64,000 bases of DNA from positions 1 through 64,000 of the IMG/VR virus record IMGVR_UViG_3300034198_012786, one strand, 5' to 3'. Both the position numbers and the translations under genes were made by a program. The DNA is from a virus. Positions within the stretch are counted from its first letter, which is position 1, and each line of letters opens with the position of its first letter. This document shows positions 697-13,939 of this stretch, piece by piece. The notes under the pieces are model-generated. The model saw nothing but the letters and a program-made list of their open reading frames with translations. It was not told the DNA's origin and made no database searches.

Positions 697-1224
697 ATGA
701 AACCTGCTGACTTGTCTGCTACTTTACGTCGGATCGCTTCTAAAATAGATGCCTCGAAAAATCCATCTCGCGAATTAGTCTTAAAACATCTTCGTAAACT
801 TGCATCCGAATTGACTGGCGAACCTCGAATTGAGGTAGCGATTTTTGAGGGTGGAGCTTATACAGAACATGATGTTGTCGGGAGTCTTGTGACCAATATG
901 GAGCCGGTATGGGCGAGCCTTACGCCTTTCGGCTGGGCTTTCATGAATGTCGACCCTAAGATGATGGCTCCTGAAACCCGCATGTCATCAGACCAAGCGT
1001 TCTTCGATGGAAAAGCGCTTGAGTCTATTCTTTCTCACGACTATGTTAAGCTCACGCCTAGGGATTTTAAAGAGTACTCATCGAGTGCCAAGTTCGCGGC
1101 AGAAGAGGATACCCTGCGGTTTATGTGCTCGTATGATGAGAAAGAGAAGCCCGCAATTGGTGAAACACTAGTCGAACATGGCTTTACTGAGGCAGCCGAT
1201 AAGTTACCTGATGTTGAGATGTAG
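697..1224 (+). CDS. Unknown protein with the N-terminal LxxIAxxID-PSR module
   Basis: A 175-residue protein of unknown function. The start at 697 is preferred over 691 because AAGGAG ends at 690, giving 6-nt spacing. The first 40 residues (PADLSATLRRIASKIDASKNPSR) form a module that recurs at the N-termini of the proteins starting at 43372, 44542 and 45928. The rest has a mixed alpha/beta composition with aromatic residues and no recognisable enzyme motif. It sits directly downstream of the capsid terminator, so it is probably a separate virion or head-associated gene. Function is not known. The shared module suggests a common location, perhaps packaging into the head (inference). Confidence 0.65.
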   Translation: MKPADLSATLRRIASKIDASKNPSRELVLKHLRKLASELTGEPRIEVAIFEGGAYTEHDVVGSLVTNMEPVWASLTPFGWAFMNVDPKMMAPETRMSSDQAFFDGKALESILSHDYVKLTPRDFKEYSSSAKFAAEEDTLRFMCSYDEKEKPAIGETLVEHGFTEAADKLPDVEM

Positions 1225-1300
1225 TGATTGAATCATCGAAGCATTTTATCAGTTAAAAGCATATCAATGACTCTTCGGTTTTCTTTAAACCCATCGTAGT

Positions 1301-1633
1301 ATGGGTTCTAGTGCTGGTTCATCGGATTCATCTCAGTCCTCCGCTATCTCCATATTCCTAAACAAACTTAAGGAACAATCTTTCACTGTTGTGCTGATGG
1401 TAGCGATTGTTTATTACCAACATGCGGCATGGCAAGCTGACAAGGCCGAGTATTTGAAGGAAATACATTCAAAAGACGACCGAATTATGGCTTTGATCGA
1501 TCGTGAACATGATAGGTTAATCGAACGGGAAAAGCATCTTATTCAGCAGCGTGATGAATTCATTTCGATTCTTAAAGAACAAGCGGCCTGGAATCAGGCC
1601 GAGAGTCGTTTAACGAAATCTCGTTCTAAATAA
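1301..1633 (+). CDS. Small single-span membrane protein with charged coiled-coil tail
   Basis: A 110-residue protein. A Ser-rich N-terminus (1-20) leads to one hydrophobic segment (about residues 28-42, SFTVVLMVAIVYY), then a long, highly charged helical segment rich in Asp, Glu, Lys and Arg (45-100). The topology matches small phage membrane proteins such as holin- or spanin-like products, but no family signature is visible. The ATG lies in a small ACCCAT/ATGGGT hairpin and lacks a Shine-Dalgarno, so the start is uncertain. It is followed 12 nt later by the low-complexity gene, with which it may be co-expressed. Confidence 0.5.
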   Translation: MGSSAGSSDSSQSSAISIFLNKLKEQSFTVVLMVAIVYYQHAAWQADKAEYLKEIHSKDDRIMALIDREHDRLIEREKHLIQQRDEFISILKEQAAWNQAESRLTKSRSK

Positions 1634-1645
1634 CTTGGAGCAAAA

Positions 1646-2428
1646 ATGTCCACCAACATAAGTGCAAATCAGTCAGCTACCGCGACTACCGATAAGAATT
1701 CAGCTTCAGCTTCCATTAATAACACGATCGAAGCCTCCGCCGGGGTTAGCACCGGCAATGATAATGCGTCGATTTCGGCAGGCGTATCGGCTAAGACTGG
1801 AACTGAAGCTGGCGTTTCGGCCGGTTTAGATGGAAATAATGTGAATGCTGGCCTGCACTATTCTGACACCACCGAGGCACATGCGACGGTAGATGCGACC
1901 ACAAATTATCACGGCGTTGGCGGATCAGCTTCAGGTGATGCTTATGCTGTAACCGGAACTACCGTTGACGCCTCCATTTCTGCTGGAGATCATGGTGTGG
2001 CTGCCTCCGGTGGCGTCTCCTCTGGTACTGCTGTTGGAGTAGATGCTGACGCCACTGCGAAGCTGAGAGGGGCTTCAGCTACGGCTGGTGCTGGCGTGTC
2101 TGTCGGCGACCAAGTAGGTATTGGGGGTGGTGGCGAAGCTACCTTCAAGGACGGTAAAGCCACTGTCGGCGTTAGCGGAGATGTGGCAGCACTAGTCGGA
2201 GCTAAGGTCGACGTATCTGTAACTGTAGACACTAAGCAAGCAGCCAAGGATTTAACTAGTGCCGGTAGTGCAGTGGTAGCTACTGAGAAGAAAGCGGAGT
2301 CTACAGTTGTCAGCACGGCACAAAAAGCTGGTAATGCGATTGTAGACACTGGTAAGAAGGCCGGTAACGCAGTTGTAGATACTGGTAAAAAAGTAGGTAA
2401 CGCGTTCAAGAAGGCGTTTAGATTTTAG
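1646..2428 (+). CDS. Low-complexity Ala/Gly/Ser/Thr/Val-rich protein with tandem C-terminal repeats
   Basis: A 260-residue protein made almost wholly of Ala, Gly, Ser, Thr, Val and Asp, with alternating small and beta-branched residues (for example AGVSAGLDG, ATAGAGVSVGDQVGIGGGG), suggesting a regular beta-type or glycine-rich structural fold. The last 50 residues hold about three near-identical units of 12-13 residues (GNAxVDTGKKxGNA) that end in a Lys-rich tail and FKKAFRF. GGAG 6-7 nt upstream supports the start. No homologue family is recognised; a virion or surface protein is plausible. A long reverse-strand open frame inside it is a compositional shadow. Confidence 0.6.
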   Translation: MSTNISANQSATATTDKNSASASINNTIEASAGVSTGNDNASISAGVSAKTGTEAGVSAGLDGNNVNAGLHYSDTTEAHATVDATTNYHGVGGSASGDAYAVTGTTVDASISAGDHGVAASGGVSSGTAVGVDADATAKLRGASATAGAGVSVGDQVGIGGGGEATFKDGKATVGVSGDVAALVGAKVDVSVTVDTKQAAKDLTSAGSAVVATEKKAESTVVSTAQKAGNAIVDTGKKAGNAVVDTGKKVGNAFKKAFRF

Positions 2429-2466
2429 CGAATTGTAATATTACAGTTCATGCTTAAGGGCGGTCC

Positions 2467-3462
2467 ATGAACTTAGTTCACCGTTTATCTACCATCGTGA
2501 ATTCTAAGCCTATCTTTGAATCGTTATCCACGATCGAGAAATCAAAGTTCGTAATTGTGCCTGTGCCTTTTGACGGGACTTCAAGTTATAGACTCGGGTC
2601 TGCTTTTGCGCCGGATGCAGTAATTGAGGCGACTCATCAAGTCGACACGTTTGATCTGGAATTCAGTGACAATGTTGTTGGGAATATATTTGTCGATGAT
2701 CCGGTTATTGAGGCGGTCGAGGCAAATGAAATAGCTCGAGATTTATATCGCAGAAGTCTGAATAATGACACGCGAGCTTTGGACGAGCTTAATCGGGTTT
2801 GTAACACCGTCTATTCGGCTATTAGGGATCGCTCTCGTTATTGGCTGTCGAAGGGAAAAGTGCCTATAGTGTTGGGTGGCGATAATTCGGTTTCGCTTGG
2901 TTCGATCGTGTCTCATTTTGAGCGTTTTAAAGACTTGAGCGTTCTTCACTTTGATGCTCATGCCGATCTTCGAACTAGGTATAACGGATGTCATTTTTCG
3001 CATGCTGCTGTCATGAGCAATGTCGTGCAAATGACTAAATGTCCGATTACACAGGTCGGCGTTCGAGACCTTTCCGAATTCGAGTATCTATCGATCATGA
3101 ATTCGAGAGGTCGCATAACGCCGTTTTTTGCTAAAGATTTATGGGAATACTCTCAATACGAATCATTCGACATAGTTGCGGAACGTATAGCAACGACTCT
3201 CTCACCCAATGTTTATGTTTGTTTTGACATGGATGTGTTCGACATTTCGATGGTTCCGAACACTGGAACACCCGTTCCAGGTGGTCTAAATTGGTGGCAG
3301 GTAAATGCGATTCTAAAGGCAGTTGTAAATGCGGGTCGAAAAATCGTAGGATTCGATATAAATGAATCTTCACCTGATGGAAATGATCCGATCATCGCAG
3401 CTCGTATGTTACATAAACTTTGTGGTTGGTCTGGGGCTGGACCGCGTGCTAGTTTGGTGTAA
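2467..3462 (+). CDS. Arginase/agmatinase (ureohydrolase) family protein with altered metal site
   Basis: A 331-residue protein, the usual family length. Ureohydrolases use a binuclear Mn centre to hydrolyse guanidino compounds. Visible motifs: the N-terminal PVPFDGTSSYRLGSAFAP segment, LGGDNSVSLG around residues 137-146, DAHAD at 163-167, FDMDVFD with Asp254 and Asp256, then GTPVPGG and GFDINE. The Asp/His ligands of the second and third motifs are intact. In the first motif the normal metal-binding His of GGDH is Asn (residue 140). It is therefore either a variant enzyme or a binding protein. Unusual in a phage. It lies just upstream of the Cys micro-ORF array. Family membership is confident; the substrate (arginine, agmatine or other) is not determined. 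Confidence 0.85.
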   Translation: MNLVHRLSTIVNSKPIFESLSTIEKSKFVIVPVPFDGTSSYRLGSAFAPDAVIEATHQVDTFDLEFSDNVVGNIFVDDPVIEAVEANEIARDLYRRSLNNDTRALDELNRVCNTVYSAIRDRSRYWLSKGKVPIVLGGDNSVSLGSIVSHFERFKDLSVLHFDAHADLRTRYNGCHFSHAAVMSNVVQMTKCPITQVGVRDLSEFEYLSIMNSRGRITPFFAKDLWEYSQYESFDIVAERIATTLSPNVYVCFDMDVFDISMVPNTGTPVPGGLNWWQVNAILKAVVNAGRKIVGFDINESSPDGNDPIIAARMLHKLCGWSGAGPRASLV

Positions 3463-3470
3463 GTTATGGT

Positions 3471-3650
3471 ATGGCCCATGATTGGCAGTTAATTTACTCG
3501 AATATTTGGAAATGCTTAAATTGTAATAGTTGGTGTAGGCTTTCTGATCCTAATCAGAAGCCCAACCCACATTGGGTTGAACGTGATAATGAATTAGTGG
3601 ACGTTAGGACCTATCATGATGTGATGGTGAATTATATTCATGCCTCATAA
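3471..3650 (+). CDS. Cys-motif micro-protein 1 of tandem array (59 aa)
   Basis: A 59-residue ORF. It starts MAHDW, has CLNC near residues 15-18 with a further Cys soon after, and ends IHAS. It is the first member of a series of small proteins with the pattern M-x-H-[D/E/K]-W, then CxxC, then an acidic or Cys C-terminal segment. The ATG follows a TATGGT hexamer directly. It overlaps the next ORF by 11 nt, so translation is likely coupled. A single CxxC would need a partner or the later Cys/His residues to bind zinc. Function unknown. Support comes from the overlap pattern and paralogy, not from a known family. Confidence 0.6.
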   Translation: MAHDWQLIYSNIWKCLNCNSWCRLSDPNQKPNPHWVERDNELVDVRTYHDVMVNYIHAS

Positions 3651-3834
3651 ATGGAAATGTAGGACGCCGGGTGTGTACTACAAAGAATTCGAATGCCTTT
3701 TGTGCGGTTCTTTGTTTAGAGATGTGAATATGCCGTTTCCTGCCCAGAAAGTATTATCCGGAAGCCATATGATTCAGGATTTAAAGTATATGACCTGCGA
3801 AGAAATAATAATCTGGAATATTTATGCTTCATGA
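3640..3834 (+). CDS. Cys-motif micro-protein 2 (64 aa)
   Basis: Begins MPHKW, carries CLLCGSLF (residues 19-26) and near its end the TCEE motif seen in the next member, closing with NIYAS. The start overlaps the end of member 1 by 11 nt, and the stop TGA lies inside the ATG-x-CAT-GAA start of member 3. The CxxCG turn resembles half of a zinc ribbon. No family is recognised; a metal-binding or protein-binding role is a guess. Independent N- and C-terminal conservation with its neighbours supports that it is a real gene. Confidence 0.6.
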   Translation: MPHKWKCRTPGVYYKEFECLLCGSLFRDVNMPFPAQKVLSGSHMIQDLKYMTCEEIIIWNIYAS

Positions 3835-4018
3835 ATGGGTTTTACTCAAGGAATCAGGTGGTCTCAAAACGTTTAAATGTGACATGTGTGGTTATATTTT
3901 TGTGGGTTCATATAACCCATCTAAGGATGGTTGGCTCTTAGTTGTGGATCCTATTTTAAAGAATTCTTCTTATCTAACCTGTGAAGAAATACTCATGGGG
4001 ACAATCCATGGAGCATGA
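3824..4018 (+). CDS. Cys-motif micro-protein 3 (64 aa)
   Basis: MLHEW start, CDMCGYIF at residues 19-26, a middle segment ending in DPIL, then LTCEEILMGTIHGA at the end. Same length as member 2 and clearly paralogous to it in all three conserved blocks (M-x-H-x-W, CxxCG, TCEE). It overlaps both neighbours by 11 nt. Tandem duplication followed by divergence is the simplest explanation. Function unknown. Confidence 0.62.
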   Translation: MLHEWVLLKESGGLKTFKCDMCGYIFVGSYNPSKDGWLLVVDPILKNSSYLTCEEILMGTIHGA

Positions 4019-4226
4019 CTGGATTTTAAGTCATGAGATTCATGGAAACGTCATAGTGAAATGCAAGTTGTGTGGTTATCTTACGTCGGCCGGTTATTGG
4101 ACCAGTCCGAATTATGACTGGTTTGTTGTCGGTCGAATAATGTCGTGTTTTAATAGCGGTTCGATGGAGTATCGAGCTATCCCAAAGTGCGAAGAATTCT
4201 TAGCGGAAGTGGTCCATGATCGATAG
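4008..4226 (+). CDS. Cys-motif micro-protein 4 (72 aa)
   Basis: The start is placed at the ATG of MEHDW (4008), not at an upstream in-frame ATG at 3981, because this keeps the array's 11-nt overlap and the M-x-H-D-W signature. It has CKLCGYLTSAGYW, a second half with MSCF, and a C-terminal PKCEEF that matches the TCEE block. Slightly longer than members 2 and 3. Function unknown. Confidence 0.6.
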   Translation: MEHDWILSHEIHGNVIVKCKLCGYLTSAGYWTSPNYDWFVVGRIMSCFNSGSMEYRAIPKCEEFLAEVVHDR

Positions 4227-4491
4227 GGAAAAGAAGATGGCGTCTCTCAAAGCTCTCTTAGATAATCAAGTGAAGCGCGTATCGCGTGACGGCCTCTCGA
4301 CCGACGAAACTAACGAACTTTTTCAAAGGATGATTTCTCCTATTAAGAATCCCATCGACTATGCCGGGATTAGAAGTGCATTCAAGATAAACCCGATGTG
4401 TTCAGAGTGTTTTATGGAATTCGAGAATGATCAATCTAGATCAATGCATACTGTTGAAGAATGTGTATCTTATAAGGTTCATAACTCGTGA
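4216..4491 (+). CDS. Divergent array member 5 (91 aa)
   Basis: Keeps the 11-nt overlap with member 4 but starts MIDREKK in place of M-x-H-x-W. It has an added charged helical N-terminal half (residues 1-45), then PMCSECFMEF and a terminal VEECVSYKVHNS that resembles the C-terminal block of the others. It looks like a fusion of a helical segment to the array's C-terminal module. Function unknown. Confidence 0.55.
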   Translation: MIDREKKMASLKALLDNQVKRVSRDGLSTDETNELFQRMISPIKNPIDYAGIRSAFKINPMCSECFMEFENDQSRSMHTVEECVSYKVHNS

Positions 4492-4703
4492 GCCATGACT
4501 GGGATTTCAAGGGTCCTACCGGTATTGCTGGATTATACCGTTATAAATGCTTAAATTGTGGTTGCAAAGTCGACTCATCTGTCAGACCCGATCACAATAT
4601 GTTAACTATATTGGAAATTCCCTCATGGAACGGTTATGCTAGAAGAGCTTATCCGTCATTGACGTGTGATCAAGCAGTATCTATTAAAATTCACGAGGAA
4701 TAA
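4488..4703 (+). CDS. Cys-motif micro-protein 6 (71 aa), GTG start
   Basis: Starts GTG (MSHDW) overlapping the previous stop by 4 nt. It carries CLNCGCK near residues 21-27 and a C-terminal LTCDQAVSIKIHEE block matching the array. It restores the M-x-H-D-W signature lost in member 5. It ends with a GAGGAA that can serve as the Shine-Dalgarno for the methyltransferase gene that follows. Function unknown. Confidence 0.6.
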   Translation: MSHDWDFKGPTGIAGLYRYKCLNCGCKVDSSVRPDHNMLTILEIPSWNGYARRAYPSLTCDQAVSIKIHEE

Positions 4704-4704
4704 A

Positions 4705-5235
4705 TTGGATCTAGAAAATAGGAATGTGATTAATCGTTATAAGGCGTGGACAACCGAGCTTATTCGAGATGATTTAGCGAACAAAGCTTTTCCGTTCGCA
4801 GTTTTGATGGAAAACTTTGTTGGTGATTTTAACTTCGGAACAGTAATTAGATCGGCCAATGCCTTTAATGCGAGAGCGGTCTATTATATTGGTAATCGGA
4901 AGTATGATAAACGTGGTGCAGTCGGCACTTTCAATTACAGTTATGTTCACCATCTACCGGATTACGAATCATTGGAATGCTTAAAGTCTCAGTATGAGTT
5001 TGTCGCTCTTGAGAACACGGTTCCAGGCGCTCAGTCGATTTATGAGACTGCATATAATCGACCTCCTCTTTTCATTTTAGGGGAGGAAGGGGTAGGTATC
5101 ACTGAAAAAACTTTATCTTTAGTGGATCGATGCGTTTGTATACCTCAGTATGGATCCGTACGCAGTTTGAACGCGGCGGTGGCGGGTTCTATAGCAATGA
5201 ACGACTGGGTTTCAAAACATGTCTCGAGATCTTAA
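4705..5235 (+). CDS. SPOUT-family (TrmH/SpoU) RNA 2'-O-methyltransferase
   Basis: About 176 residues from the TTG at 4705, chosen because GAGG lies about 6-8 nt upstream and the longer frame from 4666 would overlap the preceding gene. It shows all three SpoU motifs: NFGTVIRSANAFNA (motif 1), FILGEEGVGI (motif 2) and IPQYGSVRSLNAAVAGSIAM (motif 3). Motifs 2 and 3 form the trefoil-knot SAM site. The family methylates ribose 2'-OH in tRNA or rRNA; the target here cannot be told. There is no extra N-terminal RNA-binding domain, so it resembles the short tRNA-type enzymes. A phage copy may modify host tRNA or rRNA (inference). It is the last gene of a forward unit that meets a reverse gene tail to tail. 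Confidence 0.88.
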   Translation: MDLENRNVINRYKAWTTELIRDDLANKAFPFAVLMENFVGDFNFGTVIRSANAFNARAVYYIGNRKYDKRGAVGTFNYSYVHHLPDYESLECLKSQYEFVALENTVPGAQSIYETAYNRPPLFILGEEGVGITEKTLSLVDRCVCIPQYGSVRSLNAAVAGSIAMNDWVSKHVSRS

Positions 5236-5886
5236 TTATCCTATATACTCTATCTCTTCGATTCTAGGGATCATATTATCGTGAAATAGTATGCACATCC
5301 GTTCCACGTCAGATTGTGCGTCTTCGTCATGCCATCTTTGCATAAAATCTGCTTTTGATAATCGGCCGATCTTTCCGTTCATGGATGGATCTCGAAAATA
5401 CAGGTTTTCGTCGTCCATGCCTGTTACTATGGCGTAGTGACCATCCTCGTTGCTGTGCCTGTAGTCTGATCCAGAATCGCTCCAGGCTTGAAAGTTCACT
5501 ATAATCGGCGTTTTTCGTCTAAGTGATGATTCGATTATTTTAAGGTCCGCGTTTTCTCTACGCTCTGCGTTTAGGCCGAACTTTCTTGCGATTTTAACTA
5601 TGTCATCGGCATTTGTTCCGTTTATCGGATTTGTTCGTAATTCGCTTGCGAGGTCGTCTTCTCTACCGTCATATTTCCCATAATAAGCCAGTATCGCCAG
5701 CAAGCATGCAGATCCGCACGTAAAATCATTATATTGACGTACGTTGGGGATATCTATTAGATCGTTATGTCCAGAAACTGACTCTGGATTTTTAAGGTCC
5801 GGATTTACGTCTGGGTCCTGACCAACCAATTCTGATGTTTTCCCTTTAGCAATCCGGTTGGCTATCCTTATCTTATCTACACTCAT
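5236..5886 (-). CDS. C39-like papain-fold cysteine peptidase with N-terminal RIANRIA peptide
   Basis: 216 residues from the ATG at 5886; another ATG at 5901 is possible. Residues 45-190 match the peptidase C39-like fold: NDFTCGSACLLA with catalytic Cys57, DGHYAIVTG with His150 and FRDPS with Asp166. These enzymes cleave peptides such as double-Gly leaders, or act as stand-alone cysteine proteases. No ABC-transporter domain or membrane span is present. The N-terminus (KIRIANRIAKGK) matches the short IAxRIA peptide seen on other virion-type proteins here, suggesting that the protease may be carried in the head (inference). A GTATCGT box lies 6 nt upstream of the start. It is a reverse-strand unit among forward genes. 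Confidence 0.75.
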   Translation of the reverse strand: MSVDKIRIANRIAKGKTSELVGQDPDVNPDLKNPESVSGHNDLIDIPNVRQYNDFTCGSACLLAILAYYGKYDGREDDLASELRTNPINGTNADDIVKIARKFGLNAERRENADLKIIESSLRRKTPIIVNFQAWSDSGSDYRHSNEDGHYAIVTGMDDENLYFRDPSMNGKIGRLSKADFMQRWHDEDAQSDVERMCILFHDNMIPRIEEIEYIG

Positions 5887-5892
5887 GCCTAC

Positions 5893-5899
5893 ACGATAC
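5893..5899 (-). promoter_or_regulatory. GTANNNT promoter (GTATCGT) for the C39-like gene
   Basis: On the reverse strand GTATCGT is followed by 6 nt and ATG. It matches the window-wide GTANNNT promoter motif and lies about 10 nt from the divergent box of the structured RNA. Confidence 0.45.
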
Positions 5900-5908
5900 A
5901 TAAGACGT

Positions 5909-5915
5909 GTAATTT
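5909..5915 (+). promoter_or_regulatory. GTANNNT promoter (GTAATTT) for the structured RNA
   Basis: GTAATTT is the same heptamer as in front of the polymerase gene. With the spacing seen at other units, transcription would start near 5921, just ahead of the first helix of the RNA. It makes the RNA an independent transcription unit. Confidence 0.5.
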
Positions 5916-5920
5916 ACTTA

Positions 5921-6429
5921 CTATTTTTAGAATTTTTATCGGCGCGCTATTATGCGCCAGTCGATTAGAGATGCCTTGAAAGAAGGGGTCTCGAAATACT
6001 CGGAAGAGTCTAGTGACTGTCGTTCCTTTGTTGTCGTTTACTAGAGCGGTCTAGTGTAGGCAACTGCGGAGCCGGAAACGCATTTGAACGATGAGAGTCG
6101 TTCTCTTGGCTGTCGGCAATGTCGCGATTCTTATGGCGTCTCGAGCCAAACCCTTAAACAAGGTGGTTCGATACCTGTCGTGGCGCGACATGCCATTTCG
6201 GTCGGTAACCAGCGATGGTTACTAGATCGGCTTGGTCCCGGTTTTGGTTTAGCGTCGAGAGATGTTAAACTAGAATGGGTGCACGCGATTCGGTCGCAGC
6301 GTAATCTGCGATAAGGACCGTGGAGCAGGTAGGTAAGACTGGTGCGACGGATTCTCTAAACGGAATCAAGTTCGAAATCAAGCTTCCTTCCAACGTGGGC
6401 CTCGACGGAGATATCCGTCGAGGCCCACG
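5921..6429 (+). ncRNA. Large structured non-coding RNA (about 510 nt), family not recognised
   Basis: This 575-nt gap between a reverse gene and a forward gene has no convincing ORF but is packed with helices. Found by eye: 5941-45/5954-58; 5968-72/5988-92 with 5974-77/5983-86; 6009-16/6038-45; 6070-73/6108-11 enclosing 6086-91/6098-6103; an 11-bp stem 6115-26/6084-region partner at 6184-94 with one bulge, enclosing 6134-37/6145-48 and 6161-64/6173-76; 6199-6203/6225-29 with 6205-10/6217-22; 6233-38/6315-20 enclosing 6247-52/6265-70 and 6285-88/6294-97; 6350-54/6363-67; then the terminal hairpin 6394-6429. In the 11-bp stem the partners are 6115-6126 and 6184-6194. It has its own promoter-like box and terminator. 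It does not show tmRNA, RNase P, 6S or group I intron signatures. Exact ends and function are unknown. Confidence 0.7.
6394..6429 (+). terminator. 16-bp terminal hairpin of the structured RNA
   Basis: Perfect 16-bp stem (6394-6409 with 6414-6429), GATA loop, followed by CGTATGTG. It is the strongest hairpin of the region and marks the probable 3' end of the RNA. Confidence 0.75.
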
Positions 6430-6465
6430 CGTATGTGCGTCTTGAATTGCGGACTCTTGTTTAGT

Positions 6466-6472
6466 GTAAATT
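6466..6472 (+). promoter_or_regulatory. GTANNNT promoter, predicted leaderless start at 6478
   Basis: GTAAATT, then 5 nt (AATCT), then ATG. No Shine-Dalgarno is present. Confidence 0.6.
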
Positions 6473-6477
6473 AATCT

Positions 6478-7725
6478 ATGCTAACCCACTGGGAACGTGC
6501 TTACAAATTCTTTAATAGCAAGCGTACAGAAGCTAAGCAGGATTTCGAGAAACTAGGCTTGCTTTGCTATGCGAATTATCTACATAACTTGAAATCTCAG
6601 AGCATTATTTCTGGTTCGGGTAGTTCGATTCGTTCGAAGGCGGTGGATGACCGATTTTACTCTAATCCTTACACTCAAAAGCTGGCTGCTCTGACTATTG
6701 AGATTCTTTCGAAGTCGATGGAGTCGGCTTCGACTCCATATAGTTTTTCTTTATCTGCCAATTCTGATTTGATGCAGCAGTTTAATGTTATGGTACTTTC
6801 TGCTTACAAGTCATACAATCCCAATCTTGATGAAAAAGCGTTCTATGCTTCAGCGCTGACTGGAATGATTCAGAATTGGTGTTATCTGATTCATGAGCAC
6901 GCGGGAAAGAAAGTGTACGAAGTCTCGCCGGGTTTGGCTGAACGATTACGGCATACTGAGTTGCGTGGAATAAATTCCGATGATTTGCGCATGCCTTATG
7001 CCAGTATCTATGTGATGATCCCTAAGTCTGAGTCGAATAATCTTCGGCTATATAATGAAGAAACGGGCTGGCATCAACTTGAGGGATTTTATCTTACGGA
7101 AGACCCTGTAGGAGAGGATCCTTCAAAGCCTGTCAGAACGTGGAGATTTTTGTTTGTTGGAACAGCACATGATGGTACTAATGCCTTCGACGATGCTCTT
7201 TTTCACTTTAGTATAGAGCTACCTGAGAACACGCCGATTTCAGACATTCTTTCGAATGAGCAAAGGGTGGTCGATGATAGCACTCTCATCATCGACCAGA
7301 AAGCTCGTGATATTTTTCGAACTGAATGGAAAGGCCTTTTTAATTGGGCGATGAATGTTGTTATGTATTCCACCTGGCCGGATGTTGAGGTCGAGCACTT
7401 CATGGCCAATGACGAAGCTAGGGCTTTATGGAATCGAATTTCGAAGTTGCCTAAGGGAAGAAAGAAAGATGACCTTAAAGATCGATTTAAGAAGTTGATA
7501 CCTCAAAATCGAATTAGACTTGGGCGTTCCATAACCCTTTGGAGCCCGGAAGAAAACTCGAGCGAAAGTATAAATGTCCGTCGAGTTCGCACGCTTGTGT
7601 CGGGTTTTTGGATGCGCCAGGCCTACGGTGAAGGTCGTAGCTTCCGACGATGGAGGTACCAACCCCCATATTGGCGCAACCGTGATTCATCTGAAGAGAG
7701 TAACAACAAGCATGTTCTAGTTTGA
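6478..7725 (+). CDS. Unknown protein, possible distant AcrVA2-like family member
   Basis: A 415-residue protein. Its N-terminal 150 residues are helical. A beta-rich centre follows (SIYVMI around 177-182, TWRFLFVG around 222-229, then a DDALFHFSIEL strand), next a helical stretch, and a C-terminal signature: IRLGRSI, then RRVRTLVSGFWMRQAYGEGR, then RRWRYQPPYW. This order of blocks, including the Arg-rich segment before G-x-W and the closing R-W-x-x-P, recalls the anti-CRISPR AcrVA2 and its many phage and plasmid relatives. That resemblance is from memory and weak at residue level, so no function is claimed. It lies just downstream of the structured RNA, behind its own leaderless-type promoter, and directly ahead of an aminotransferase gene. 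Confidence 0.6.
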   Translation: MLTHWERAYKFFNSKRTEAKQDFEKLGLLCYANYLHNLKSQSIISGSGSSIRSKAVDDRFYSNPYTQKLAALTIEILSKSMESASTPYSFSLSANSDLMQQFNVMVLSAYKSYNPNLDEKAFYASALTGMIQNWCYLIHEHAGKKVYEVSPGLAERLRHTELRGINSDDLRMPYASIYVMIPKSESNNLRLYNEETGWHQLEGFYLTEDPVGEDPSKPVRTWRFLFVGTAHDGTNAFDDALFHFSIELPENTPISDILSNEQRVVDDSTLIIDQKARDIFRTEWKGLFNWAMNVVMYSTWPDVEVEHFMANDEARALWNRISKLPKGRKKDDLKDRFKKLIPQNRIRLGRSITLWSPEENSSESINVRRVRTLVSGFWMRQAYGEGRSFRRWRYQPPYWRNRDSSEESNNKHVLV

Positions 7726-7728
7726 TCT

Positions 7729-7735
7729 GTAAAGT
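7729..7735 (+). promoter_or_regulatory. GTANNNT promoter, predicted leaderless start at 7741
   Basis: GTAAAGT, then 5 nt (GTCTC), then ATG. The box lies just after the stop of the preceding gene. Confidence 0.65.
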
Positions 7736-7740
7736 GTCTC

Positions 7741-8892
7741 ATGATTTCTCAATTAGACCAGATTAGCTTCGGTGCGATTGTAACCGTCAGAGACCGCTTG
7801 CTCGGTTTGGCGTCTCAAGGCCGTAAGGTATACCGACTGGAGTCTGGAGATCCGAACTTCGCAGTCCATCCGGAAGTTAAGCAGGCTATGCGCGATGCTT
7901 TAGATAAAGACTATACACATTACACGGCGTCAGCTGGAATCGTCGAACTGCGTCGTGCGATTGTCGAAAAATGCCGCCGATCAAATCATATACCGGTATC
8001 TGACCCAAACCATGTGGTGGTCACTAGTGGCGGAATGCATGCACTTTTCTTAACCTTTGCTTCGATTCTCGAAACCAATGATGAAGTGATTATTCCGGAT
8101 CCGATGTGGACCGAAATTGCAGAAAATATTAGACTAGCTGGTGGCTATGCTGTTAGATGTCCCATGGACCTAAGCAAGCCCAATCCATATACAGCGGACA
8201 TGGTCGAGCGTTATATTACGCCCAATACCAAAGCTATTTTCCTAAATACTCCACATAATCCAACTGGAGTCGTGCTTTCTGAGTCAGTTTTAAAGGAATT
8301 CGTTAATCTAGCAGAAAAGTATGACTTGATCATTGTGTCTGATGAAGCTTACGAACATGTGATTTTCGACGGATTAAAACATGTAAGCGTGGCTTCTCTA
8401 CCTGGTGCATATAATCGAACTATCTCTTTATTTAGCTCCTCTAAGAGCTATGCAATGAGCGGTCTAAGGATTGGTTATGTCGTATCGAATAACGAGCCAG
8501 TTCTTGATCGTATTAAGAAATTGCTCAGGTGTAGTACAAACGGGGTGAACAGTGTCGCTCAATATGGTGCTGTGACGGCTCTTTCGATCGGGAATAGTCA
8601 TCAGACGGAAATGGCTAAGGAGTATGAAAATCGACGTAACTTGTTATTAGACGCCTTGCTTCATTCTCCACATTTTACAACATTCACTCCCTCAGGTTCC
8701 TTCTTCCTTTGGACAAAGCTGAAGTCTGAAGCCAATGACGTGGCTTTTACGGACTATATGATAGACAAGGCGGGAGTTGGTAGCAGCCCAGGAAGTGCCT
8801 TTGGTCCCGCCGGTAGGGGCTACATTAGATTTGCATTCTCCTGCTCGACTGACCACTTGGCCCAAGCGATTGTAGCACTGAAATCAATATGA
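7741..8892 (+). CDS. PLP-dependent class I/II aminotransferase (AAT fold type I)
   Basis: A 383-residue protein of full family length. Visible features: a substrate-arm segment near residues 30-40 (LESGDPNF), TSGGMHALF for the cofactor phosphate region, NTPHNPTG with the conserved Asn near 180, SDEAYEHVIF with the Asp and Tyr that contact PLP, SSSKSYAMSGLRIGY with the Schiff-base Lys at about 235, and a C-terminal YIRFAFS Arg that binds the substrate carboxylate. All key residues are present, so it should be active. It resembles aspartate/aromatic aminotransferases of subgroup I-gamma. The amino acid substrate cannot be told. Rare in phages. Its 3' end overlaps the convergent gene by 73 nt. 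Confidence 0.92.
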   Translation: MISQLDQISFGAIVTVRDRLLGLASQGRKVYRLESGDPNFAVHPEVKQAMRDALDKDYTHYTASAGIVELRRAIVEKCRRSNHIPVSDPNHVVVTSGGMHALFLTFASILETNDEVIIPDPMWTEIAENIRLAGGYAVRCPMDLSKPNPYTADMVERYITPNTKAIFLNTPHNPTGVVLSESVLKEFVNLAEKYDLIIVSDEAYEHVIFDGLKHVSVASLPGAYNRTISLFSSSKSYAMSGLRIGYVVSNNEPVLDRIKKLLRCSTNGVNSVAQYGAVTALSIGNSHQTEMAKEYENRRNLLLDALLHSPHFTTFTPSGSFFLWTKLKSEANDVAFTDYMIDKAGVGSSPGSAFGPAGRGYIRFAFSCSTDHLAQAIVALKSI

Positions 8893-9446
8893 TGTTGCGG
8901 AACACTATCAGGTAGCGGAATCGATTCGGTCATATAATTACCGATTTCTTCATGGTTAAATTCGATGTAATGCTTCAGGAACCATGATGGTTTCTTACGC
9001 CCCTTTTTCCATTTAGCGAACATCTTGGCGTGCTTAATATATGAACGGTACGCAACGATGACATCGCGATTGCGATAAATCCTTGGCATGCACTGAACGA
9101 ATTTGGTCCGTGATTTCTTGGGCCAGCTGAGGTTCATGTAATTCCGTTCCATACTTAGAATTACATCTTCACACTTGTGCTTCTTCCCGAATCTCTGTTC
9201 AAATTCCTCGGCAATTTGTTTTGCGTGCCTAAGCAACCATTCGAAGTTGCCTCTCGATTCAAGTACCCATTTGCAACAAGGATGCTTCAGCATTAGCTGT
9301 CTGTATGGGGCCAGGTGCGGGAGTCCGAGGACGTGAAACGCATTAGATAGCATCTGCGCACTTTCTAAGATCATTTTGGGAACGTGTTTGTCACACAGGT
9401 GCTTTGCTGCGATTTCCGGGTTGTGATGGGTCACAAAAATGTTCAT
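8820..9446 (-). CDS. Conserved phage protein of unknown function (DKHVxKMxxExAQML family)
   Basis: A 208-residue protein. The N-terminus (MNIFVTHHNPEIAAKHLCDKHVPKMILESAQML) matches a widespread phage hypothetical family whose members start with a short beta strand and then D-K-H-V-x-K-M-x-x-E-x-A-Q-M-L, followed by HPCxxW, a W-L-L helix and a C-terminal P-x-x-Y-R-x-R-D-V-I-V-A-Y-R-x-Y block. The pattern of conserved His, Cys, Glu and Arg suggests an enzyme, but no activity is known to me. GAGG sits about 5 nt upstream of the start on the reverse strand. It is convergent with the aminotransferase and overlaps its end. Confidence 0.75.
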   Translation of the reverse strand: MNIFVTHHNPEIAAKHLCDKHVPKMILESAQMLSNAFHVLGLPHLAPYRQLMLKHPCCKWVLESRGNFEWLLRHAKQIAEEFEQRFGKKHKCEDVILSMERNYMNLSWPKKSRTKFVQCMPRIYRNRDVIVAYRSYIKHAKMFAKWKKGRKKPSWFLKHYIEFNHEEIGNYMTESIPLPDSVPQHHIDFSATIAWAKWSVEQENANLM

Positions 9447-9519
9447 GCTTGCCTCATGATTCTGAACTTAATATAAGAGGAATTTCCGGATTTTATCCTT
9501 TAAATAAGAGACTTTAATT

Positions 9520-12191: not shown

Positions 12192-12239
12192 AATATGAAT
12201 CAACCCACCAATGTTCATCTTGGTGGGTTGATTCATATT
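12192..12239. terminator. 20-bp bidirectional hairpin between convergent genes
   Basis: Perfect 20-bp stem (12192-12211 with 12220-12239), 8-nt loop. It reaches the stop of the reverse polymerase gene and can serve both directions. Confidence 0.8.
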
Positions 12240-13939
12240 TAAAGTATAGAGTACTGTTTGACTTTCGTAAATTCGGAGCCGAATTTAATCCCTAATTCAC
12301 CGTTGCCTTGAATTGCTTGATACCTCTTTAGGTCTATAGCTCCCTCTAGTATCAAGTCTACATATGATCCTGGCGATGTTCCTATTGTAGCAAACGTGAC
12401 TGCTTGTCCATCTTTTCTCTTAAGTATCCGGTGCGTTCCGATTATTCCGTAGAATTCAATTCTTTCTCCGTCATCGCTTCGGTAACACTCTTTAGGGAAC
12501 TCATTTCCTGACCACATTTTATACTTTTTAAGCTCCCACCATGGGTCCGATTTAAATAACTGCGGTACGTACTCTTGCCCGATAAGCGTATCGTCTTTCA
12601 CTGCAAATGGTCTCTTTCCTGGGATCACTTTCCATCCAGCAAGCTTGGCTTCTTCGACATGGACCCACGGTCTCCACATTGGTTGAGTTCGGTTAAGCAC
12701 CGACTTCCAGAAGGCTTTCGTGTTGTGTGCTTTTTGCCACGCTAATGCCCAGGCCACGTGACCATATGCAACTGAGTGGGACTTGCACATGCTGAACGAC
12801 CTGAATGCTTCAAGATCATCTATGATCGTCTGAGCATCATCTCGGTGTGATATCAGATTTCTGAAATCTTCAGTGGCTTCGTGGTCTCTTTTAACAAATG
12901 CTCTTCTAAGAGCGTCAGCTTCGGGACCCGAAAGACCTGATATCTCTTGAATTACTTTCGTGGCGTCATCCTCGAATATAAGGAATTCAGTATCTCGTTC
13001 TTTATTCCATTCCTCCATGAAGTTAACTCTATGACCTCTCCAGGCTGACGCCGGTCTAATAAGCGCCATGCACATTATCATATCGTTTACGCTTTTAGGT
13101 TTGACTGCTCTTAGCATTTTCTGAAATGCTGGTGATTCTGCTTGCGTAATACCTAAAGATTTTCCCTGGCTAAGCATTTCAGTGATTTTTGCGTCTTCAG
13201 GAGGATATTCTAGTATTGGTCTTGAATCACAATCATTGAGCTGAGTTAGCGATATATTAGACAAAATGTCGATTTTAAAATAGTTCATGATATCGGTTTC
13301 GAACTTATCGATTCTAATTTGGCCTTTTTTCTCTTTCATCCGAATGTCTGGCGGAACTTCTCTGTCGAACACGATGACTCCACCGCAGTGTAGAGATAGA
13401 TCTCTTACTTGCCCCTTTAGATCTGCCGCTATTTCTATTGCATCGGTCTCTCGACCCGGTACCACTTCATGTATTTTAAAGCCTCGAGGCAGCTTTTTTC
13501 GAACTCCTAACCTACGAATCGCCTCGCGAATCGCACTCTTGTCTTTGTATGTTATATGATTCGATATTCGTGCTGTTCGATTTGGGAACAACTGGTGAAT
13601 TCTGTCAAATACTTCTTCTCTTCTTATATCTGGAAAGTCCAAGTCGATATCGGGGAGATCCTTGCGTTTCGGATGAAAGAATCGCTCTGGAGCTATATTC
13701 CATTTAACTGGGTCGATGTCAGAGATGCCAAGAAGGTATATGACAAGGCTCGATCCAGCGGATCCCCTGATCGTATGGGGTATGTCTCTAATGTTGCGGC
13801 ATATTTCAGCTACGGTCAGTATGTAGTCTTCAGCTACCGTATTTTCAAACCAACTTAGCTCTAACTTGAGTCTTTCTTGATATCTTGGTTCTTCAGGTGG
13901 ATTTCTAATGAAATATTGAGGTATAGATCTACCATGCAT
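12239..13939 (-). CDS. PHP-less minimal DNA polymerase III alpha (C-family) catalytic core
   Basis: A 566-residue protein. Bacterial DnaE is usually above 1000 residues. This one begins exactly at the palm: IRGSAGSSLVIYLLGISDIDP (58-77), then PDIDLDF with Asp99 and Asp101 and, further on, FKID with Asp224, the equivalents of the three catalytic Asp of E. coli (401, 403, 555). Also present are HCGGVIV (184-190), LGITQAESPAF then MIMCMALIRPAS (fingers), and CKSHSVAYGHVAWALAWQKAH (fingers). The N-terminal PHP domain is absent, and the C-terminus is too short for the full tandem HhH/OB/tau-binding regions. All catalytic residues remain. GTAATTT lies 5 nt upstream of the ATG. It is a reverse-strand unit between fibre genes. 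A role in phage replication or repair is inferred. Confidence 0.88.
   Translation of the reverse strand: MHGRSIPQYFIRNPPEEPRYQERLKLELSWFENTVAEDYILTVAEICRNIRDIPHTIRGSAGSSLVIYLLGISDIDPVKWNIAPERFFHPKRKDLPDIDLDFPDIRREEVFDRIHQLFPNRTARISNHITYKDKSAIREAIRRLGVRKKLPRGFKIHEVVPGRETDAIEIAADLKGQVRDLSLHCGGVIVFDREVPPDIRMKEKKGQIRIDKFETDIMNYFKIDILSNISLTQLNDCDSRPILEYPPEDAKITEMLSQGKSLGITQAESPAFQKMLRAVKPKSVNDMIMCMALIRPASAWRGHRVNFMEEWNKERDTEFLIFEDDATKVIQEISGLSGPEADALRRAFVKRDHEATEDFRNLISHRDDAQTIIDDLEAFRSFSMCKSHSVAYGHVAWALAWQKAHNTKAFWKSVLNRTQPMWRPWVHVEEAKLAGWKVIPGKRPFAVKDDTLIGQEYVPQLFKSDPWWELKKYKMWSGNEFPKECYRSDDGERIEFYGIIGTHRILKRKDGQAVTFATIGTSPGSYVDLILEGAIDLKRYQAIQGNGELGIKFGSEFTKVKQYSIL

Follow-up and report, generated by a model that had tools for sequence, protein, structure and literature searches.

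A probable stand-alone structured noncoding RNA gene in an accessory island of a jumbo phage

Positions 5938–6431 on the plus strand of a 64,000-nt stretch of viral DNA (hereafter the window) probably form, in a jumbo phage, a stand-alone gene for a structured noncoding RNA. Computational evidence supports the structure of this element, its strand, its 3′ boundary (at the level of a terminal hairpin) and the absence of coding. A preliminary description had read here a structured RNA unit that ends in a terminator, resembles no known large RNA and has its own promoter; all of this stands except the promoter, the unit running left to right, ending in a hairpin of the terminator class and matching no Rfam family. 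Globally, what can be upheld of that observation is a structured noncoding gap, but neither a promoter nor a canonical terminator. The element and its two neighbouring genes comprise the following features, in window coordinates:

5236–5901, minus strand: C39-like cysteine peptidase gene, the divergent neighbour
5902–5937, plus strand: AT-rich stretch before H1, presumed from sequence to be the transcript start region
5938–5965, plus strand: H1, 10 bp, competing with a long-range alternative; mean pair probability 0.01–0.70, according to which ends and temperature are assumed
5968–5992, plus strand: H2, 9 bp; mean pair probability 0.99
6003–6021, plus strand: H3, weak; the alternative is a 4-bp GGAA-capped hairpin at 5998–6009
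6024–6070, plus strand: H4, 16 bp with internal loops; mean pair probability 0.92–0.96
6071–6117, plus strand: H5, predicted, with a GAGA (GNRA) loop
6119–6191, plus strand: H6, 29 bp with internal loops; mean pair probability 0.90–0.95
6192–6236, plus strand: H7, GCGA (GNRA) loop, competing with a long-range helix (6010–6023/6212–6225)
6238–6279, plus strand: H8, 16 unbroken bp with a GAGA (GNRA) loop; mean pair probability 0.94
6280–6327, plus strand: H9, predicted
6328–6391, plus strand: H10, predicted
6394–6429, plus strand: H11, a perfect stem of 16 bp; GCGTATGTG comes next, with no U-run; mean pair probability 0.95–0.98 in every fold tried
6478–7725, plus strand: 415-aa gene, tentatively AcrVA2-like, a neighbour probably separate from the RNA unit

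The window derives from a 184-kb IMG/VR virus record. A second record, IMGVR_UViG_3300032233_002382 (307,777 bp; G001), contains all 64 kb of the window in reverse orientation with zero differences and, as this copy is identical across the whole window, the evidence concerning the RNA rests on a single sequence. G001 is a jumbo phage, with ten tRNAs and with genes matching the PHROG families of phage capsid protein, portal, terminase and DNA polymerase, and the source appears to be an uncultured 300-kb virus of bacteria. The window also encodes (12239–13939, minus strand) a 566-aa DnaE-like protein that spans the NTPase and finger regions of polymerase III alpha, and a second DNA polymerase is found at G001:147401–150250.

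The relatives of G001, whose TerL proteins are 38–72% identical to its own, form a large group in IMG/VR, and the capsid protein is 86–94% identical in the eight relatives that hold the capsid gene. The element is located 5.3 kb downstream of this gene. The genes that surround it (window about 700–9500) encode an arginase, small proteins, a SpoU methylase, the C39-like peptidase, the 415-aa protein and an aminotransferase; almost all of them are absent from the eight capsid-bearing relatives and the element therefore lies in a variable accessory island. The same island includes, at 3640–4703 (plus strand), short overlapping genes (64–91 aa) of related-looking sequence with zinc-finger-like CxxC motifs, which are possibly tandem duplicates. 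The window is devoid of tRNAs. In G001, these are found at 23.8 kb and 55.6–65 kb and the element at 257 kb, i.e. about 190 kb from the tRNA cluster. This cluster also holds, beside a tRNA-Leu gene, a match to the wcaG RNA (RF01761; L012:4083–4173, minus strand; 44.4 bits for a gathering threshold of 42).

The preliminary description had placed the unit between a reverse and a forward gene and had seen no credible ORF in it, and both points were borne out. The gap between the peptidase gene and the 415-aa gene is 576 nt long (5902–6477), and the longest ORF (76 aa, TTG start, 6084–6314) has a codon log-odds of −3.9, most other ORFs of the element likewise having negative scores. However, a 41-aa ORF with a GTG start that runs through H11 (6320–6445) scores weakly positive (+4.5), which weighs against the noncoding reading.

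The lowest-energy fold of 5930–6433 is a chain of the eleven hairpins, in which 69% of the bases are paired and adjacent hairpins are separated, from H4 to H11, by only 0–2 nt. This agrees with the dozen or so helices claimed earlier, the eleven hairpins drawn being largely the same from 10 to 50 °C. At 37 °C, with the ends set in four different ways, H2, H4, H6, H8, H10 and H11 have mean pair probabilities of at least 0.87, and those of H5 and H9 range from 0.59 to 0.97. A long stem enclosing other hairpins had also been described, and is probably the 14-bp helix 6010–6023/6212–6225 that surrounds H4–H6; this helix can indeed be drawn, but only in an alternative fold that competes with H1, H3 and H7.

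GNRA-capped hairpins with a stem of at least 5 bp are in clear excess: the element has four of them, versus a mean of 0.2 and a maximum of 3 in 2,000 shuffles (none of the 2,000 reaching four), and its reverse strand has none. The GCAA-capped member of this set, with a 5-bp stem, clashes with H4 and may fail to form. An equal cluster of such hairpins occurs near 10.7 kb on the plus strand of the window, within a glycine-rich coding repeat. A search for repeats in the element found only two weak direct-repeat pairs, without tandem repeats or iterons. H4 partially resembles, over 12 nt, the repeat of type I-F CRISPR systems, but this lead was dropped, as the stem of the repeat is not formed.

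The GTAATTT box previously proposed as the promoter of the unit is present at 5909–5915, but nothing in the distribution of this motif argues for a promoter role: upstream of the protein genes tested, it has no sense-strand copy and three antisense copies, for 1.1 expected. A sigma-70 scan gave matches at chance level. From the TAGAAT at 5928–5933, transcription would start near 5940, although a promoter is not established there.

The 3′ end is better delimited. The 16-bp terminator reported earlier corresponds to H11, a hairpin with 16 perfect pairs at precisely the positions given for it; without a U-run behind it, however, H11 does not qualify as a canonical intrinsic terminator, and a scan for intrinsic terminators found none. 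This phage has many perfect 13–23-bp hairpins immediately after genes. Between 66 and 308 kb of G001, 20 perfect hairpins of at least 13 bp lie outside ORFs; 18 are at the 3′ ends of protein genes, another follows a 68-aa ORF (267977–268183) that had been dropped by a length filter, and H11 is the only one that follows no ORF. Unlike the rest of this phage-wide class, H11 thus lacks a preceding ORF, and therefore most simply ends the RNA described here; such an orphan hairpin suggests a separate noncoding transcript. The simplest reading of H11 is a terminator or 3′-end hairpin of the phage-wide type without U-run. The post-gene perfect hairpins of this part of G001 mostly lack a U-run, some being followed by (C)GTATTT, and it is possible that they represent an unusual terminator type of this phage.

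The position of H11 could also be read in another, rather unlikely way, in which the element is a long structured 5′ leader of the 415-aa gene, the transcript extending into 6478–7725 and H11 acting as a read-through attenuator. The RNA and the gene are on the same strand, only 48 nt separate the end of H11 from the ATG, and regulation by a structured leader with a hairpin at its end is common. However, these 48 nt include a TTGAAT-17-TGTAAA pair (found by eye), and the gene could therefore have its own promoter. No antiterminator partner is evident for H11, whose pairing hardly varies between folds. Furthermore, three related phages encode distant homologues of the 415-aa protein, and the structure is missing at all three: the upstream space is too small for the RNA in two of them (G048 and G028) and consists in the third (G047) of a 384-nt unstructured gap. 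A leader is therefore unlikely, and so is a system pairing the RNA with the 415-aa protein, which the same three loci do not support.

As for the protein itself, the best PDB match of its profile is the anti-CRISPR AcrVA2 (7ci1; E = 0.34), through the GxW region of the C-terminus, a stretch that by itself looks AcrVA2-like. This resemblance of an accessory-island protein to AcrVA2 is possible and is to be taken as a lead only. The gene matches no PADLOC model, and the predicted structure of the protein (pLDDT 45) is too poor for use.

The reading of the element as a stand-alone RNA gene is supported by the strength of its folding. The minimum free energy of the plus strand is −228.3 kcal/mol versus −171.6 ± 6.0 in dinucleotide shuffles (z = −9.5, versus −5.0 for the opposite strand), and limiting the span of pairs to 80 nt gives a z of −10.1. 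The whole 307-kb contig was also scanned on both strands (500-nt windows, step 250, local pairing, dinucleotide content regressed out). The scan window 5933–6432 (plus strand) ranks first among 2,462 window-strands, with a z of −5.6; it was deliberately placed on the element, and the nearest window of the regular grid, shifted by 52 nt, scores −4.6, still above all other regions. The next independent region reaches −4.1 and the opposite strand of the element is outside the top 22.

Among the ORF-free gaps of ten related genomes, the element ranks second by region, above the gap in the tRNA cluster of G001 and behind an array of long hairpins in IMGVR_UViG_3300027754_000034 (G002). The presence of such a hairpin-rich stretch elsewhere in these phages (G002:161222–162279) weighs against the RNA-gene reading. 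This array, the strongest folding gap among all genomes scanned, is a 1,058-nt ORF-free succession of long perfect hairpins, several of which have ATATGGCAT...ATGCCATAT in common. Another structured gap, G001:16739–17394 (656 nt, ORF-free, AT-rich), is strongly structured on both strands and includes a 24-bp inverted repeat around further hairpins.

Inverted repeats may also act as DNA, for example in a replication origin or in a single-strand initiation or packaging site. The density of inverted repeats in this gap between two genes of a large phage speaks for such an element. This explanation is nevertheless very improbable: the strand asymmetry is strong after correction for composition, the GNRA loops are confined to one strand, the terminal hairpin belongs to a class found at transcript ends, and there are no iterons but just the two weak direct-repeat pairs.

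No relative of the element was found. blastn against phages and plasmids retrieved none, nor did searches of its own genome and of the second record, pseudo-peptide scans of IMG/VR and bacterial genomes, or a search of 7.7 Mb of sequence from relatives with nhmmer and with blastn at word size 7. blastn against 50 related phage records was likewise negative, the four best matches inspected all lying inside open reading frames. Covariance models built on the single sequence found no homologue either, whether in these 50 records (two models) or in MCP loci (one model); as they derive from one sequence and have no distant positive control, this empty search is weak. The viral records searched are fragmentary and such empty searches do not show that relatives do not exist. 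The long ORF-free gaps that relatives have downstream of the capsid gene were considered as possible sites of the same RNA, and this was rejected, the G002/L208 gap being of the same place and size but unstructured. Therefore, by sequence and by single-sequence covariance models, the element is an orphan.

An orphan surrounded by accessory genes that relatives almost entirely lack could be a decayed or fast-evolving noncoding remnant devoid of present function, and the lack of homologues in the IMG/VR, phage, plasmid and bacterial genome collections and in the 50 related records would fit. Yet decay lowers folding stability, whereas no other stretch of the contig is as locally structured as the element, whose base pairing is intact across most of 500 nt, so that a remnant appears even less probable than a DNA element.

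The preliminary description had recognised by eye none of the known large RNAs. Indeed, a search with 4,227 Rfam models, among them those of GOLLD, ROOL, OLE, introns, tmRNA, RNase P and 6S RNA, found no family at threshold anywhere in the window and no match of the element to any known class, and relaxing the search of the element to E ≤ 10 gave chance matches only. As claimed, it does not resemble tmRNA (ARAGORN and Rfam), RNase P RNA, 6S RNA or group I introns; for both group I and group II introns, the Rfam models of the catalytic cores are unmatched and, moreover, the element lies between genes and not inside one. Type III toxin–antitoxin RNAs consist of tandem near-identical repeats that precede a terminator and a toxin gene; the element has no tandem repeats and, as noted, the downstream gene matches no PADLOC model. 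A cis-regulatory leader or riboswitch finds no support either, no known class being matched and the element not being kept upstream of homologous genes.

The large phage RNAs known so far are few. Many members of the GOLLD family exceed 800 nt, ROOL assembles into a homo-oligomeric nanocage made of RNA only, and OLE RNA has dedicated protein partners, the Oap proteins. The element is large and ornate like OLE but has no Rfam match, and no partner of the Oap type is recognised. GOLLD and ROOL had been invoked as precedents; this holds for the kind of RNA, large, structured and phage-encoded, but not for family membership, the covariance models of both being unmatched at gathering threshold and at E ≤ 10. 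GOLLD is a giant phage-encoded noncoding RNA whose level rises during lysis, ROOL is a large structured noncoding RNA of phages and prophages with no known protein partner, both form RNA-only cages of unknown purpose, and both are often near tRNA islands (PMC12286853). The element is, like GOLLD, a large putative noncoding RNA encoded by a phage, but it is about 500 nt long, has no embedded tRNA and lies far from the tRNA cluster, a tRNA-island location being usual rather than universal for GOLLD. Like ROOL, it is a large and, by prediction, highly structured RNA, but its predicted hairpin chain differs from the fold of ROOL, described with multiple pseudoknots (PMC12286853). That the element is a divergent member of GOLLD, ROOL, OLE or a similar class beyond the reach of Rfam models, with which it would share a large size, a high degree of structure, an intergenic location and a phage origin, is hardly credible given the zero model matches even with permissive filters, the distance from the tRNA cluster and a predicted fold unlike the pseudoknotted one of ROOL (PMC12286853).

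For the stand-alone RNA gene, we infer expression as a discrete RNA, as well as its exact ends, its tertiary folding and an action in trans. Transcription would start in the AT-rich stretch that precedes H1, run left to right and stop at the perfect hairpin H11. The transcript would fold into eleven local hairpins, almost without linkers from H4 on and several of them GNRA-capped; in a second state, the 14-bp long-range helix would close the 5′ half around H4–H6. The RNA would then act in trans as a rigid multi-hairpin molecule, either as a scaffold that assembles by GNRA and other loop contacts, or as a multivalent decoy titrating away an RNA-binding protein of the host or of the phage. Such a scaffold or decoy role is tentative and is suggested by the architecture, a chain of rigid, often GNRA-capped hairpins being suited to either. 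It is also conceivable, though doubtful, that the element represents a large phage noncoding RNA of a new class, a partly GNRA-capped hairpin chain with a switchable 5′ domain that would serve as a self-assembling scaffold in trans or as a decoy in phage–host conflict.

If true, the presence of an unrelated 500-nt RNA in such an island of a jumbo phage would suggest that phages have repeatedly acquired large structural RNAs as accessory genes, of which those lacking relatives escape family-based searches. The genome-wide scan of local folding, together with the test for orphan terminator hairpins, could be used on other phages to find more of them.
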